Source: a virus. From it: a stretch of 59,036 nt of DNA. The stretch spans positions 1 through 59,036 of IMG/VR virus record IMGVR_UViG_3300047548_001221. The stretch is one strand, 5' to 3'. Shown here one piece after another: positions 8,414-15,373 of this stretch (positions are counted from its first letter, which is position 1; every line of letters starts with the position of its first letter). The notes beneath the pieces were generated by a model, which saw only the letters and a program-made list of their open reading frames with translations, did not search any database and was not told the DNA's origin. Both the position numbers and the translations under genes were made by a program.

Positions 8414-11400
8414 TTATATCCTGGATACTTGCAATAACTTGTCCTGTATAGAGTTACTTTGCGATATTTTTTCAGCAATGTTTCCCAAAAGATCAACAAC
8501 TTCTGACATAGAATTGCTGCCAGTATTACCTTGATTTCCAATATTTTCATCTATATTTGGTATTAATTTATCTACAAGTGTTGTTAATGCATCTCTAAAT
8601 TCTTGTGCTAACTTTTCAACTGATGAATTAACCGTATTTCCTTCATTGATCATTTCTTGTAACCTATCACCCAAAATATCTCCTACATCTCCACCAAAAG
8701 CTTTTGTACCTACGGTAGCTGGACCTAACTGATAATTTGTTGCTATACCGGAGTGTAATATGCTTTTCCATGCATCAGTGTCTGTGATATTTTTAGTTTT
8801 TTCATCATACGCACCAATTTTACTAGCTATTTTTTGTATAGCCGTTAAATCAGTTGTCATGTTCCCTTGATTAAATCCAGTGTATTCATTCACACCAAAT
8901 GCAGTTGGACCCATTTCGTCAGAAAATAATTTAACAGATTTCTTAGCTATAGATGCAATTTTTTCGGTTGGTATTACAGTTTCATTGCCATGTAATTCTA
9001 CTATGTATCCTGACTCAGGTCCTTCGAAAACACCTCCTTTTTCTGCTTTTGGTATTTTATCTTTATTAACTCCTGCAACCATTGTATCTGCTGAAGGTCG
9101 AATACCCTGTATTGCACCGGAAGATGAATAACTTGAAACTTTTTGCATCGTTTCATTTGCTAAAAATCCTCCTGCTTTTCTAACATCAATTCCTGCAATT
9201 TGACTTGTTGCTAACAAATTGGCTTGTTCTTGGGTCATGTTTCTTTCATCAAACCCCATTTTTGTAGCCATTTTTGTTTTACTACGTTCCATATACCAAG
9301 CAACGACATCTGCTGCTATCTTAGGATCATTAACTAAATCAGGATTTTTAACAAGTCTATCATCACCGAATATAGCACGTGATGCTGAAGCATAATTTGA
9401 TTTACCGGTTAATTGAATGTACCCTCTACCTCTATATTTCCATCCATCACCAGGTTCTAAATTGCCCATTCGTTTACCAATAGCAGTGTCTTTGCCATAC
9501 ATAAACTCACCCATAGATTCTGGATTTGATTTAATTCTGTTCAATTCTTCATCTGTTTTTCCTGCTGCTCTTGAACCGAATATTGATCGGATTCTTTCGT
9601 TTTTTGTTTTACTATAGTCTAGGTTTTCGTTGATGACTTTGCCACCAGATTCTTTCATGACGTTGCCTAAAACAGCATTTAAATAATTGCTATCCGTCAC
9701 ACCTCGCTTCATTAATGCAGCTTTGACTTCACCTAAATTCTGTTTTACATCTTGTTTGACTGAAGGAGGTGCTGACGGTGCGCTAGGTGCTGACGTATTT
9801 GCACTGGAATCTGGAGCAGATGATTCACTTTTTAAAGCTTCACGCAATCTTGAAGTGTCACCCACGCCGGCCCTAAGTGCATCTTCCATTGCCTCTTCAA
9901 TATTTTCTGGAATCTTCTTGATTCTATTATCAAATTTTGTAAAAGATGCACCAGTTGAACCCATGTCTTCAAGTGCAGTATCAAGTATTTTTGTAAATTC
10001 TTCAAATGTACCTGAAAGTTCTCTACTTGAGGTAGACAATCTACCAAAAATACCATCAGACGTTTCGTTAGGAGATCCAATGCCTCGCTGTACTGTAAAT
10101 GGATTCTGTTCTCCTAATTGTTTACGTAAATTTTCTTGTGCTTTGCGTAGTGCTTCTGCTTGCCCGGGTTCTGCAATTATACCTTCATCGGTGAGTCTTC
10201 CTGCAAGTTTTCCGTTTATAGTTATAGGTATGCCTTCTTCATTTTTCTTTTCACTTATTTCTTTTTTAGCTTTATCAATTTCTTTATTTGCATTATCGGT
10301 CATCTTAGCAATGCTGCCGCCAGCAGCTTCACCTATAGCTTTTCCACCTTTACTACCTAACCATCCGCCTACTGCTGCACCTATTATGCCACCAATTGCT
10401 ATTCCAATGGGGCCTCCGGCGGCCCCTAACACAGCACCTGCTTTGGCGCCTGCTAATGCTCCCCCTGTACCTGCTGCCGCGGCACCAACTCCTCCACCTA
10501 CTGCCTCACCTTTTTTCTCTCTAGCTTCTTCTTTAGTAATTTTACCTTCTTTTAATTCTTTTTCGGCTGCTTTTATTCCTTGATATATATCAACTACTCC
10601 TCCACCTACAGCAGCCGCTGTACTCACCACTGGTGCTGCGCTTGCTAATTTACTAAGAGGACCAGCTAAATTTGCTAAAGCTGTTCCAGCGCTTGTGGCC
10701 GCCGATGCTGCAGACGCGGCTCCAGACACAGTTGTTGCACCGGTTATTACTTTTTCTGCGTTTACTCCAGGTAACTTAGGTCCTCCACCTCCGCCACCAG
10801 GTGAAACTGTGCCACCTGTGCCCGGCAATCCACCTCTTGCTGCGCCACGCGCAGCATCAATTGCGTCTTTACCCCTAGAAGCCAACCCTCCTAATATTTT
10901 ACTTCCCTGTCCGAGTGCAAGTGCACCTAGGGCGGCGGCCGCTAATGTTGCTGCTATAGTGAGGCTATTGAATCCGCTTAGTAATGGGTTAGCCTCAGCT
11001 ACTAAATTATCAACAAATTTACCAAATTTTTGTTCGTATGTAGTTAACGCTGCACGTGCATCCTGTGAAGGATCTTTGCCGGCTTTTTTAGCAGCTTCTA
11101 TTCTATCCTTTTCAGCCTTATTTGCTTCTTTGAAATTTGTATCTCTTTGTTGATTAAATTTTTCTAATGCACTTTCTGAAATACCAAACAGTCTAGCAAC
11201 CTCTTTAGAAATTTGAGCTGCAAAACCAACATTGTCAATAGTTTCACCAAATTTTTTATTATATGCGTCTTGAAATTTAGACGTAGCCTGTTGTACATCA
11301 GCCCCATTTTGTATTGCTTGGCGCAGTTCTGTAAGGTCTTCCATGAGACCCATTCTAGTTAACGCTTGTGCTTCTTCACCTGATATAGTTCCTGTAGCTA

Positions 11401-12517
11401 AGAACGATCTAGCTCCTTTAGTTACTGTTTCATTACCTAACGCTGAGATTCTATCAAGTGTCTGCTGCCGTGCTTTTGCTTCGTCACGTAATTTTTTAGC
11501 TTCTTCTGTTCTTCCTTCTGCTTCTAATTTTCTTGCTTTGTTTTCTAATTGAATTTGAGAAATTTGCCATTCAACTGCTCTGGATGCTTCTTGTTGTTTT
11601 TTCTTTACAGCTTCGACGTCTTGACCTGTTAATGTAGCAAGTTCTAATAACGTATCTTGATATTCTAAGGACGCTCTTTGAAGCGCGGCCCTATCTTTCA
11701 TTTCAGCTTTTAGGTTTCTACCCGCCATGCTTTGCAAGGCAACATAGTCAGCCTGAGTTTGCAATAATTCTTCTTGACTTACACCTAATCTTTGGTATTC
11801 TTCACGTTGTTGATATGATATCTTTGCTAAGTCAGCAAAAGCTTTAACACTATCACCGGTATTTTTACCCAACAACATCATGTTAGAACCCATAGATGCT
11901 ATTGGTTTAGTAAATAACTCTAAGTTTTTAGATGTAAGATTGGCACCATGTGCCATCTGTAATAATTCTTTGCTTGTGAAAGAACCTGCTGTTCCGAACT
12001 TTGCTAATTGATCATTGGCTTTTAAAACTCGGTCAGCCTGTTCCATATATACGGAACTTAATTTACCAACTACATCAACTGTTGCTCCTAATGCTTTTCC
12101 TAAAAGACCAAATGTAGATAGAAATTGACCTATTGCCCCGGTAAATCCTTCGACAGATTTACCATATTTTTCAAAACCTGCTTTTTGACTAAGTAATTCT
12201 TTGCTAAAATCTTTTATAGCACCGGTACCGGCTTTTAGTGCTTCAGCTTGTGTCTTTAATTTCTTTTCGTATTCGTGTGCTGCTTTTAATTGATCAATTT
12301 GTGCTCTTGTCAACCCACGTGAACTATACCCTAGTTCTTCTAATTCTTTATCAACATCTCCTGCTGTGTTACCAAGACGATTAAAATATTTGATGGTATT
12401 TTCGCTAGGTGTGCTTGCTGCTCCAGGCATACGTGATGTTCCCAAAATCGAACTTTGGTCACGCATTGCACGTAACTCATCCAACATTGCAAGTAATATT
12501 TGTTTTTCTTCATCCAT
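8414..12517 (-). CDS. tail tape-measure protein with embedded GH19-like cell-wall hydrolase
   Basis: 1,367 residues. The N-terminal half is long helical and coiled-coil sequence with repeated Lys/Glu/Ala runs, as in tape-measure proteins; hydrophobic/glycine-zipper segments lie near residues 515-535 and 675-730 (GAAAAGTGGALAGAKAG, GIAIGGIIGAAVGGWLG). Residues about 925-1150 resemble a glycoside hydrolase 19 (chitinase-like lysozyme) domain: GNVMKESGG, YGKDTAIGKRMGNLEPGDG, and the family signature GRGYIQLTGKSNY near residue 1030. The C-terminal ~200 residues are non-repetitive. The protein should set tail length, be ejected ahead of DNA and cut peptidoglycan locally. T4 gp29 (590 residues) has no such domain. 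It is transcribed away from the gp26-like gene with a two-way promoter region between them. Confidence 0.85.
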   Translation of the reverse strand: MDEEKQILLAMLDELRAMRDQSSILGTSRMPGAASTPSENTIKYFNRLGNTAGDVDKELEELGYSSRGLTRAQIDQLKAAHEYEKKLKTQAEALKAGTGAIKDFSKELLSQKAGFEKYGKSVEGFTGAIGQFLSTFGLLGKALGATVDVVGKLSSVYMEQADRVLKANDQLAKFGTAGSFTSKELLQMAHGANLTSKNLELFTKPIASMGSNMMLLGKNTGDSVKAFADLAKISYQQREEYQRLGVSQEELLQTQADYVALQSMAGRNLKAEMKDRAALQRASLEYQDTLLELATLTGQDVEAVKKKQQEASRAVEWQISQIQLENKARKLEAEGRTEEAKKLRDEAKARQQTLDRISALGNETVTKGARSFLATGTISGEEAQALTRMGLMEDLTELRQAIQNGADVQQATSKFQDAYNKKFGETIDNVGFAAQISKEVARLFGISESALEKFNQQRDTNFKEANKAEKDRIEAAKKAGKDPSQDARAALTTYEQKFGKFVDNLVAEANPLLSGFNSLTIAATLAAAALGALALGQGSKILGGLASRGKDAIDAARGAARGGLPGTGGTVSPGGGGGGPKLPGVNAEKVITGATTVSGAASAASAATSAGTALANLAGPLSKLASAAPVVSTAAAVGGGVVDIYQGIKAAEKELKEGKITKEEAREKKGEAVGGGVGAAAAGTGGALAGAKAGAVLGAAGGPIGIAIGGIIGAAVGGWLGSKGGKAIGEAAGGSIAKMTDNANKEIDKAKKEISEKKNEEGIPITINGKLAGRLTDEGIIAEPGQAEALRKAQENLRKQLGEQNPFTVQRGIGSPNETSDGIFGRLSTSSRELSGTFEEFTKILDTALEDMGSTGASFTKFDNRIKKIPENIEEAMEDALRAGVGDTSRLREALKSESSAPDSSANTSAPSAPSAPPSVKQDVKQNLGEVKAALMKRGVTDSNYLNAVLGNVMKESGGKVINENLDYSKTKNERIRSIFGSRAAGKTDEELNRIKSNPESMGEFMYGKDTAIGKRMGNLEPGDGWKYRGRGYIQLTGKSNYASASRAIFGDDRLVKNPDLVNDPKIAADVVAWYMERSKTKMATKMGFDERNMTQEQANLLATSQIAGIDVRKAGGFLANETMQKVSSYSSSGAIQGIRPSADTMVAGVNKDKIPKAEKGGVFEGPESGYIVELHGNETVIPTEKIASIAKKSVKLFSDEMGPTAFGVNEYTGFNQGNMTTDLTAIQKIASKIGAYDEKTKNITDTDAWKSILHSGIATNYQLGPATVGTKAFGGDVGDILGDRLQEMINEGNTVNSSVEKLAQEFRDALTTLVDKLIPNIDENIGNQGNTGSNSMSEVVDLLGNIAEKISQSNSIQDKLLQVSRI

Positions 12518-12529
12518 GGTTTTTGCACA

Positions 12530-12536
12530 CTAAATA
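12530..12536 (+). promoter_or_regulatory. late-promoter-like box CTAAATA, plus-strand member of a divergent pair
   Basis: CTAAATA 53 nt upstream of the gp26-like gene. With the reverse copy at 12544-12550 it forms a near-palindrome in the gap between two divergent genes. Confidence 0.5.
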
Positions 12537-12543
12537 TAATTAG

Positions 12544-12550
12544 TATTTAG
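12544..12550 (-). promoter_or_regulatory. late-promoter-like box CTAAATA, minus-strand member of a divergent pair
   Basis: CTAAATA on the minus strand, 26 nt upstream of the tape-measure ATG, separated by 7 nt from the plus-strand copy. Confidence 0.5.
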
Positions 12551-12589: not shown

Positions 12590-13420
12590 ATGTCACTATC
12601 AAATAACCCGCTAAAACAGTATTTTCGTAGACCAGCAGTCTATATTAAACTACCTAGTGGTGGAAAATACTATCCACCGGGTGTAATAGATATACCAGAA
12701 AACGGAGAATTACCAGTATATCCAATGACTGCAATTGATGAAATTACCACCAAAACTCCTGATGCACTATTCAATGGGTCAGCAATGACCGAGTTGATAA
12801 AGAGTTGTGTACCTAATATCAAGGATCCGTGGCAAATTAATAGTATGGACTTAGATGCAGTATTAATAGGTATACGTGCTGCTGCAAATGGCACAGATTT
12901 AGAAATAGAATCCACATGTCCTTCATGTAATGATTACGGAAAATATGGTATCAATTTGATTAACATGCTTGTTCAAATGAAACCCGGTGATTATGAAAAT
13001 GAATTTGTTATAAATGATCTTTCTATTAAATTTCGACCACTAAACTACAAAGAAATGAATGAAGCTAGTTTAGGACAATTTGAGTTACAACGTCTTTTTA
13101 TCGCGTTGGAAGATGAAAAAGATGATGAAGTTAAGAAAGAAAAAGGTCAAGAAGCACTGAAACAAGTAACACAGTTAACTATTAAGTTGTTAACTGGAGC
13201 TATCCAATATATACAAACACCAAGTATACGAGTTACTGAAAAAGAATATATCATGGATTTTTTGAATAATTGCGACAAAAATATGTACGTTGCAATTCGT
13301 GATCATAATGCTGTTCTTAAATCTACAACCGAAATAAAACCACTCAAAATAAAGTGTGTGCATTGTGGTCATCAATACGATCAACCATTCACATTAAATA
13401 CCGCTGATTTTTTCGGATGA
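12590..13420 (+). CDS. 26: baseplate hub / tail-assembly protein, T4 gp26-like
   Basis: 276 residues (T4 gp26 has 208). The start VYIKLPSGGKYYPPG followed by PVYPMTAIDEI and a long helical middle fits the gp26 family of T4-type phages. Two Cys pairs, CPSC near residue 110 and CVHCG near residue 260, suggest a zinc ribbon, a feature of this family in many T4-like genomes. AGAGGA lies 9 nt before the ATG. gp26 is required for hub/tail assembly in T4 and is not clearly present in finished virions, which fits a chaperone. The 3' end carries a -1 slippery heptamer six bases before the stop codon and overlaps the next ORF by ATGA, so a longer fusion of about 351 residues may also be made. It is transcribed divergently from the tape-measure gene, the usual partner of tail-assembly chaperones. 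Confidence 0.8.
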   Translation: MSLSNNPLKQYFRRPAVYIKLPSGGKYYPPGVIDIPENGELPVYPMTAIDEITTKTPDALFNGSAMTELIKSCVPNIKDPWQINSMDLDAVLIGIRAAANGTDLEIESTCPSCNDYGKYGINLINMLVQMKPGDYENEFVINDLSIKFRPLNYKEMNEASLGQFELQRLFIALEDEKDDEVKKEKGQEALKQVTQLTIKLLTGAIQYIQTPSIRVTEKEYIMDFLNNCDKNMYVAIRDHNAVLKSTTEIKPLKIKCVHCGHQYDQPFTLNTADFFG

Positions 13421-13456
13421 CGCTTCTTCGTCTCGATCCCGAGAGACTACAGAAGC
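13408..13456 (+). promoter_or_regulatory. predicted programmed -1 ribosomal frameshift signal
   Basis: The heptamer T TTT TTC (13408-13414) is in the correct phase of the gp26-like frame (GAT TTT TTC GGA TGA). After a 7-nt spacer a stem-loop follows: outer stem 13422-13427 with 13451-13456 (6 pairs), inner stem 13431-13435 with 13440-13444 (5 pairs), loop ATCC. The following ORF is in the -1 frame and open across the site. These are all the parts of a classical -1 frameshift site as in tail-assembly chaperone genes (lambda G/GT). Function is inferred. Confidence 0.65.
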
Positions 13457-13644
13457 TAATCGATGACTACGAAAAAGCAGTAATCGAGATTAAAAAAAAT
13501 GCCTTGCAAATGGCATGGTATATGCGGGGTGGTGCGACATATGAAGATATCTTAAATATGTCCGCCACCGAACGACAGCAAATCAATCAAATAATAGAAG
13601 GTAATTTAGAAGCCACTAAGAAATCCGGAATGCCGTTCTTCTAA
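13417..13644 (+). CDS. short helical protein, likely C-terminal extension of the gp26-like protein
   Basis: 75 codons from ATG 13417, which overlaps the gp26-like stop codon (ATGA). It is alpha-helical, with LIDDYEKAVIEIKKNALQMAWYMRGG, then YEDILNMSATERQQINQII and a C-terminal ATKKSGMPFF. Such short proteins occur next to gp26 in T4-like genomes and are sometimes named for hub-assembly gp51; I do not claim homology with T4 gp51, which is much longer. Two ways of expression are possible: coupled reinitiation at the overlapping ATG, or a -1 frameshift giving a fusion with residue Arg (CGG) then Met at the junction. The fusion reading would make this the T domain of a G/GT-type chaperone that binds the tape measure. 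Confidence 0.75.
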   Translation: MTLLRLDPERLQKLIDDYEKAVIEIKKNALQMAWYMRGGATYEDILNMSATERQQINQIIEGNLEATKKSGMPFF

Positions 13645-14162: not shown

Positions 14163-14726
14163 TTATTTGAGTAAGTTTATTACTGATATGTTTTCGATAG
14201 ATGACTTGGTGTCTGTTTTGGATCTTGAGTATGTTTTAAGTAGGTCTTTGTTGTGTTTGAAAAAATGATCGAATTCAATTATGAGCCAATCATTATATTT
14301 TTTAGATGTATAGTACAAAAATTGGTCTGTAATCCAAGTTAGTTTAGATTGCACGCAAACAAACTTTCCTTTTCTATTAAATTTCATAAACAGTATGTTC
14401 AAATCATGTGGTTCTGATACTGTCATTACTTGATCTATCCAACTGTCTAATATCTTACAGTCTCCTGTTAATACTAGATGAAAAGGGAAATCCGCGTAAG
14501 ATTTGCATTCAGCGTTAAAAAATGAAAAGCTTTGTCCCGGAACAATGTCACCCTTAAAACTGCGAACTTGTCCCTCATGTAAGAATTCTTTTCGACTTTG
14601 ATTCTTACCGCCCACATAGGCTCCAGACCCCGGTGCTCGTATAAACGATTCGCCGTATGTTTTTGATAGATATGTTGCGATTTCTCGCTCAAAACTTGAT
14701 CCTTTTGCTTTCTGTGGACTGACCAT
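14163..14726 (-). CDS. PD-(D/E)XK nuclease, resolvase-like
   Basis: 187 residues. The N-terminus GSSFEREIATYLSKTYG with Glu13, then RAPGSGAY, Asp60 in KGDIV and Glu73-x-Lys75 in NAECKSY, reproduces the order of the PD-(D/E)XK active site seen in archaeal-type Holliday junction resolvases and related phage nucleases. The rest (WIDQVMTVSEPHDLNILFMKF) continues the alpha/beta core. It lies downstream of the gp47-gp46 recombination pair in the same direction, which supports a role in resolving or trimming recombination intermediates, a job done in T4 by the unrelated gp49. The ATG overlaps the HNH stop codon by one base (TAATG). Substrate is inferred, not seen. Confidence 0.75.
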   Translation of the reverse strand: MVSPQKAKGSSFEREIATYLSKTYGESFIRAPGSGAYVGGKNQSRKEFLHEGQVRSFKGDIVPGQSFSFFNAECKSYADFPFHLVLTGDCKILDSWIDQVMTVSEPHDLNILFMKFNRKGKFVCVQSKLTWITDQFLYYTSKKYNDWLIIEFDHFFKHNKDLLKTYSRSKTDTKSSIENISVINLLK

Positions 14727-15373
14727 TATGTTGACTTTTTGTTTTTACAGTTATCACCGTGCCAACGATGAAACATATTAATACTTATGCTCTTGTCGCA
14801 GTGCCTGCAAGTTTTTTTTATTTGTGAAGTATGTTTACCTTCGGCTAACATTTTTTGATTAATATCACCGCCTAAAAAATGATGTTTACCTTCAACCACT
14901 CGTTTTTTTGCTAGTTTTCGTTGGATCACCCCGCCAACAAACGGATTGGTTCCTTCTTCTACTCTTTTTAAATTTCTTGCTCTAGTAATTTCCCCGCTAT
15001 TTAAAAAATGGTGGGTTCCGTTCTTGACACGATCAGAACTAACACTAGTTCCATCATGTCTTTTAAGCAAATGATGTGTACCATCGGCAACTCTTTCTTG
15101 TGCCTGTTTAGATGAAAGATTTGATCTTTCTTCTGGTGTCAGATTCACTCTACTGCCGATCAAATTACATGCTCCCCAATCACCCTGATGATAATGTATA
15201 TCATAGTGTTCTTGTATTGTAACTAACTTCAAATTAGATATATTATTGTTATCATGGTTGCCGTCAATATGGTGTATGTCCATTGGTCTACCGTCTTTAT
15301 CTTTTGGAATAGATCCAAAATGCTTTTTGTAGATATCCCGATGATTATTAGGTTTGTTATGTGAACTAGGCAT
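14726..15373 (-). CDS. HNH homing endonuclease
   Basis: 215 residues. An HNH core is clear: MDIHHIDGNHDNNNISNLKL followed by VTIQEHYDIHYHQG. Behind it run several repeats of the kind DGTHHLLK, NGTHHFLN and EGKHHFLGG, which recur in free-standing phage HNH enzymes and probably contact DNA. The C-terminus holds a Cys/His cluster (CRHCDKSISINMFHRWHGDNC pattern, C-x2-C then H and C), likely zinc binding. It is inserted between gp46 and the PD-(D/E)XK gene and overlaps the latter, so like the GIY-YIG gene it is probably a selfish insertion. The ATG follows a CATAAATA box by only 5 nt. Confidence 0.85.
   Translation of the reverse strand: MPSSHNKPNNHRDIYKKHFGSIPKDKDGRPMDIHHIDGNHDNNNISNLKLVTIQEHYDIHYHQGDWGACNLIGSRVNLTPEERSNLSSKQAQERVADGTHHLLKRHDGTSVSSDRVKNGTHHFLNSGEITRARNLKRVEEGTNPFVGGVIQRKLAKKRVVEGKHHFLGGDINQKMLAEGKHTSQIKKTCRHCDKSISINMFHRWHGDNCKNKKST

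Follow-up and report, generated by a model that had tools for sequence, protein, structure and literature searches.

A slippery heptamer at the end of a gp26-like gene

The question raised by the 59-kb virus record IMGVR_UViG_3300047548_001221 (59,036 nt, hereafter called the window) is whether a gp26-like gene (ORF1) and the reading frame overlapping its end (ORF2) give two unconnected proteins, or a short and a C-terminally extended product by programmed −1 ribosomal frameshifting, and whether the latter pair would act as tail assembly chaperones (TACs). The initial annotation had proposed such a frameshift signal, and its coordinates, phase, spacer, stem, −1 frame and product sizes were all reproduced when recomputed from the sequence (Table 1). 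ORF1 ends with the codons GAT (13406-13408), TTT (13409-13411), TTC (13412-13414), GGA (13415-13417) and TGA (13418-13420), and an in-phase heptamer of the X XXY YYZ type is thus found at 13408-13414, before the zero-frame stop. After a −1 shift at the slip site the sequence reads TTT TTT CGG ATG ACG and onwards to a stop at 13642-13644, the predicted fusion being 351 residues long as compared to 276 for ORF1. The spacer holds both the zero-frame stop and an overlapping ATG in frame with ORF2 (13417-13419).

Table 1. Features of the frameshift locus and the adjacent tape-measure gene, in window positions
Feature	Coordinates	Strand	Remarks
Tape-measure-like protein	8414-12517	−	1367 aa; phrog_167 tape measure 6e-8, phrog_794 2.5e-6
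ORF1, gp26-like putative short chaperone (TAC-N)	12590-13420	+	276 aa
Slippery heptamer T TTT TTC	13408-13414	+	in phase with ORF1
ORF2, −1 frame (FFRMTLLRL...)	13408-13644	+	putative C-terminal domain (TAC-C) of the 351-aa fusion
Spacer	13415-13421	+	7 nt, between heptamer and hairpin
Stimulatory hairpin (predicted)	13422-13456	+	outer 6 bp 13422-27/13451-56; inner 5 bp 13430-34/13443-47

The bare heptamer occurs 24 times in the window against 24.3 expected, i.e., neither more rarely nor more commonly than by chance, and at such a frequency the sequence alone proves nothing. Its significance therefore derives from phase, position and conservation, the last of which rules out a chance occurrence.

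Elsewhere in the window, an ORF of 6747 residues (30557-50800, +) is exceptionally long for a phage protein, while within 14163-15373 (−) a PDDEXK_15/RusA-like nuclease ORF overlaps by one base an HNH-like ORF (14726-15373) that by eye resembles a homing endonuclease.

Conservation of the heptamer and the −1 frame

Related loci were fetched with ORF1 and, separately, with ORF2, and cultured jumbo phages were added. The end of ORF1 is complete in 165 of the loci thus assembled, and duplicates aside they number 110 (window included). Clustering at 70% identity sorts the set into 52 groups and at 50% into 13, and ORF1 identity to the window drops to about 29%. An in-phase TTTTTTC is present towards the 3' end of ORF1 in every one of the 165 loci (110/110 distinct), those recovered using ORF1 alone included, while a second in-phase copy was found in none of the ORF1 genes. 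The initial annotation had held that a heptamer broken in relatives keeping both ORFs would speak against frameshifting; when this was checked, 110/110 loci retained it.

Among 25 conserved ORF1 columns, codon variation is zero (codon entropy 0) only at the two Phe codons of the slip site, TTT in 100% and TTC in 100% of cases, the other Phe codons of the ORF1 genes being divided between 647 TTT and 289 TTC. Furthermore, the preceding codon has a final T in 109/109 loci, yet encodes Asp, Asn, Ser, Thr or His. The slip site is thus conserved at the nucleotide level beyond what the amino acids need, and a protein-level constraint on Phe-Phe alone is ruled out, as codon choice is also fixed. The −1 ORF that follows the heptamer measures 72-79 codons in the relatives (one locus being truncated by its contig end), and its differences are distributed over codon positions 1, 2 and 3 as 1470, 625 and 3008, i.e., they are predominantly synonymous, third-position changes, because of which the −1 ORF is regarded as real coding sequence. 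An alignment of relatives had been suggested as a check on the heptamer, phase, stem and synonymous constraint, and it upholds all of these except the stem, which is conserved in the window's clade only. Since 110/110 loci have the heptamer and its TTT TTC codons never vary, the ORF1/ORF2 junction is, on comparative grounds, nearly certain to undergo programmed −1 ribosomal frameshifting, as originally proposed.

The same T TTT TTC was observed in the cultured jumbo phages RaK2, CBB, GAP32, PBECO4, SCTP-2, Vibrio 2.275.O, Atu_ph07, Cassandra, BF, Munch and Phosso, as well as in cyanophage S-SM1 and Rhizobium phage IC12. A sub-lineage represented by XacN1 and RAS14 carries TTTTTTT in place of TTTTTTC, Rhizobium phage RL38J1 carries TTTTTTG, the sole other variant seen, and the classical heptamer was not found in SP-15. 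A scan with S-SM1 gp26 alone yielded a cyanophage-like set of 67 distinct gp26 loci, and TTTTTTC is present in 67/67 of these.

The deposited annotations of RaK2, Atu_ph07, BF and CBB omit the −1 domain or place its start too far downstream, in a hypothetical protein of its own, while phrog_18291 resembles a truncated fragment of this domain.

Reinitiation and transcriptional slippage

If the heptamer were incidental, ribosomes could finish ORF1 at its TGA and restart on the overlapping ATG, thereby giving two proteins, a plain reinitiation that the initial annotation had kept as its alternative. The window does possess the necessary ATGA (13417-13420), and in 22/109 loci a start codon lies at most four codons from the slip site, although none of these early starts is preceded by a Shine-Dalgarno-like tetramer (0/22). 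In 78/109 loci, however, the first 12 codons of the −1 frame contain no ATG, GTG or TTG, and in 32 loci the first 20 are devoid of a start codon; typical relatives read TTT TTC GGT TAA GGC TTC, with ATG absent. Moreover, the stretch ahead of the first possible ORF2 start is itself conserved (FFR...LL), and reinitiation gives no reason for the invariance of the TTT TTC codons. Because most relatives are without an ORF2 start codon, reinitiation fails as a general route and is considered extremely unlikely to explain the locus, frameshifting being, as far as sequence comparison can tell, the sole route common to all related loci. Some independent ORF2 product may nonetheless be made in the window itself, via the ATG that overlaps the stop.

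Two products could also arise from mRNAs of two lengths, by slippage of the polymerase on the run of six T within the slip site, a run that is extended to seven in XacN1 and RAS14 (Xanthomonas/Stenotrophomonas jumbo relatives). Such slippage would be expected to favour longer or drifting runs, whereas exactly six T followed by C are present in 110/110 and 67/67 loci of the two sets; the phase and the two-tRNA pattern U UUU UUC suit ribosomal slippage, and the hairpin lies at the distance usual for frameshift stimulators. Transcriptional slippage is accordingly given a very small probability, and ribosomal frameshifting is retained as the preferred reading.

A lineage-specific downstream hairpin

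The two-part stem-loop of the window has a minimum free energy of −13.5 kcal/mol (z −2.83 versus dinucleotide shuffles), and none of 200 shuffles was as stable. For the related loci, a 36-nt region was compared with synonymous-codon shuffles, stretches further downstream serving as controls. The window's clade (83 loci with at least 50% ORF1 identity) exhibits a mean z of −2.89, with p<0.05 in 65/83 loci, as against −0.41 for the downstream controls, while the same test on 27 more distant loci returned a mean z of −0.58. Paired cells of the common stem amount to 77.1%, shuffles reaching 72.9% and slid positions of the stem no more than 54.8%, and its covariation score (named-pair counting) is 0.218 against 0.160 in shuffles, a value reached by 0/500. 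RNAalifold returned no consensus structure for a 70-sequence, 35-nt alignment, probably due to the inner helix changing register by a base between lineages; the inner-helix register of the window is one column off the common one.

A universal hairpin is thereby ruled out, the structure being restricted to the clade whose ORF1 identity is about 50% or higher, so that the stem-loop first noted here is real in the window and its clade but not conserved across the whole family. Downstream RNA structure at 5-9 nt is present in the window and its clade, and distant clades keep the heptamer without it. In −1 frameshifting, downstream structure is common, though not obligatory. The hairpin is thus best viewed, from its distribution among these sequences, as a lineage-specific helper to the heptamer, which is the fixed core. 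It is conceivable, though rather unlikely, that the jumbo clade added its hairpin to a hairpin-free slip site and thereby retunes the ratio of short to long chaperone to suit either a longer tail or a tape measure made from a separate divergent transcript; if true, the heptamer would be the fixed core and the stimulator a lineage-specific dial.

Identity of the two products and their relationship to T4 gp26 and gp51

The gp26-like designation of ORF1 is borne out by its match to Pfam PF12322 (T4_baseplate; 3.7e-17, 63.2 bits against a curated cut-off of 24.5), and it also matches the baseplate hub family phrog_150 (1.5e-17). ORF1 contains a Cys4 zinc-ribbon-like motif (C110/C113, C256/C259). 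Its AF2 model has a pLDDT of 89.9, and that of ORF2, which is helical, 86. Searches of PDB sequences returned no significant match for either ORF, Foldseek against PDB gave nothing below E 0.001 for ORF1, and no significant viral fold match was obtained for ORF2. Over the range 15-245 the ORF1 model aligns to the HK97 tail assembly chaperone 2ob9 with a middling Z of 5.8 (99/107 residues, rmsd 4.4), the other matches being mostly helix-only, and this predicted likeness of fold is suggestive only.

The ORF2 of the window on its own has no significant PHROG match, and its link to T4 gp51 was found only because profiles were used. Both T4 gp26 and T4 gp51 belong to PF12322 (8.8e-64 and 3.9e-52, respectively), and the C-terminal 53 residues of gp51 (197-249) match phrog_634, the family of cyanophage frameshift ORFs (6e-10), as well as the end of phrog_150. 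With hhalign, frameshift-fusion profiles aligned to the gp51 C-terminus across the junction, that of the cyanophage/Rhizobium members with a probability of 95% (E 1.9e-8) and that including jumbo members with 85% (E 6.2e-6), the latter being a single comparison of moderate strength. T4 gp26 keeps Phe-Phe as TTC TTT, its gene ending in GAG TTC TTT GAG TTA CTA TAA. Since gp26 and gp51 share PF12322 and the gp51 C-terminus matches the frameshifted domain, T4 thus appears to have replaced the shift by two genes, with gp26 as the short form and gp51 as the fused long form, and to have lost the slippery codons in gp26.

Gene neighbourhood and proposed role in tail assembly

The tape-measure gene is next door on the other strand, as had been remarked, and is divergent from ORF1 across a 72-bp gap. 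Its product also matches phrog_181 endolysin (1e-32) and Glyco_hydro_19 (1.1e-6), and a glycoside-hydrolase-19 (chitinase/endolysin-like) domain is located near residues 1024-1076. Two opposed CTAAATA motifs lie in the gap (12530-12550) and could be divergent late promoters; CTAAATA is not enriched in the window (15 seen, 19.2 expected), and a shared late promoter motif was therefore dropped.

While the window locus adjoins a divergent tape-measure gene, the order in SP-15 is tube, gp26-like gene, small ORF and tape measure, and S-SM1 has the similar order tube, gp26, gp51 and a large 'endolysin', to which the window's tape measure gave no BLASTP match. As in G/GT-type pairs, the overlapping downstream ORF is without a start of its own in most relatives; the window retains its ATG. 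The synteny in SP-15 and S-SM1 agrees with that of a tail-chaperone locus. In the preferred reading, to which we assign a probability of roughly 0.94, one gene would give a pair of tail assembly chaperones by −1 frameshifting, with ORF1 as the short form (TAC-N), the fusion as the long form (TAC-NC) and a lambda-like role for both. The G/GT-like interpretation of the initial annotation thus stands, by analogy and through the T4 gp26/gp51 kinship, the short/long architecture and the synteny of relatives.

Comparison establishes the heptamer, its phase and codon conservation, the missing ORF2 starts, the −1 ORF, the clade hairpin and the gp26/gp51 kinship, whereas that ribosomes slip, how often they do so, and that the products act as chaperones on particular partners is what we infer. 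Most ribosomes would finish ORF1 at its TGA, releasing the TAC-N, while the hairpin would stall a minority at a moment when the P and A sites are both occupied by tRNA-Phe. These would move back by one nucleotide on U UUU UUC, such that UUU and UUC both re-pair as UUU. The slipped ribosomes would then read through CGG AUG and beyond to produce the TAC-NC, whose added C-terminal domain comprises 76 residues and is modelled as helical. If lambda gpG/gpGT is a guide, the tape-measure protein of the divergent neighbour gene may be coated by a large number of short chaperones and a few long ones, the extra C-terminal domain may recruit tail-tube subunits, and both chaperones would depart before the tail is completed. 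A lambda-type mechanism of this kind, in which many short and few long chaperones act on the tape measure and the long form recruits the tube, is outlined in a recoding review (PMC5009743).

It could be argued that the frameshift is real but that the fusion serves a purpose other than tape-measure chaperoning, for instance as a part of the baseplate hub, since databases name gp26-like proteins 'baseplate hub' and some T4 genetics, as related in a T4 tail review, places gp26 in the hub (PMC3004832). The same review, however, describes gp26 and gp51 as hub assembly chaperones, with gp51 missing from the final particle. The arrangement of a short and a long form built on a common N-part matches tail assembly chaperones, as do the gene orders of SP-15 and S-SM1. 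A role of the fusion other than tape-measure chaperoning is consequently judged very unlikely, and the chaperone reading is preferred.

The tail-chaperone frameshift thus appears to be firmly held across jumbo T4-like phages and cyanophages, in which databases call the two halves 'baseplate hub' and 'hypothetical protein' or, as for RaK2 and Atu_ph07, omit the second half. It supports T4 gp26 and gp51 as the short and long tape-measure chaperones, and offers a natural series for what sets the chaperone ratio, in which the heptamer is kept with or without a hairpin, or is replaced by two genes as in T4.

Comparison with known systems

Frameshifting is reportedly conserved in several groups of T4-like phages, with T4 using separate genes 26 and 51, according to the abstract of a 2022 study. 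According to a recoding review of 2016, long-tailed phages 'except T4' have G-T frameshifting as a conserved feature (PMC5009743). The TAC genes of T4-like phages were subsequently identified (Vladimirov, Gautam & Davidson 2022, Virology 566:9-15, PMID 34826709), a study summarized elsewhere as describing a short gene and a fused long gene in some T4-like phages (PMC10274946), and poly-T −1 signals in their TAC-N genes are mentioned in a further report (PMC12846349). The initial annotation knew of no such description for gp26 of T4-like phages, but, to judge by the title of the 2022 study and these two later accounts, a frameshifted T4-like tail chaperone has been known since 2022. New here is a member from an uncultured jumbo-type clade, and the detail added consists of the codon invariance, the missing ORF2 starts and the clade-specific hairpin. 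The T4-like TACs of the 2022 study, as far as these accounts describe them, belong to the same gp26/gp51 family, with the same TAC-N/TAC-NC logic and poly-T −1 signals, the window differing as an uncultured jumbo-type relative.

For the TAC of Vandenendeviridae/Andersonviridae (phage Adele, PMC12846349), too, a conserved −1 frameshift is described, in which a poly-T motif occurs and every allele has its −1 frame open, although the motif given there is GTTTTT and the phage family differs from that of the window. In cyanophage gp26/gp51 pairs such as that of S-SM1, gp26 likewise has T TTT TTC at its end and the −1 ORF is annotated as gp51, but the −1 domain is shorter (mostly 60-71 residues) and has little identity to the window's ORF2, and the large tail gene lies downstream on the same strand, unlike in the window. 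T4 gp26 and gp51 are, like ORF1, members of PF12322, and gp51 consists of this N-part plus a C-terminal domain matching ORF2, whereas the short and long forms are two genes on opposite strands in T4 and the heptamer is absent.

The slippery heptamer of lambda is GGGAAAG. The lambda gpG/gpGT system shares with the window a heptamer that lies in phase towards the end of the short ORF, a −1 shift, a C-terminally extended product and an adjacent tape-measure gene, while no sequence relationship between the two was detected; the window differs in its TTTTTTC slip site, its hairpin and its tape-measure gene on the opposite strand.
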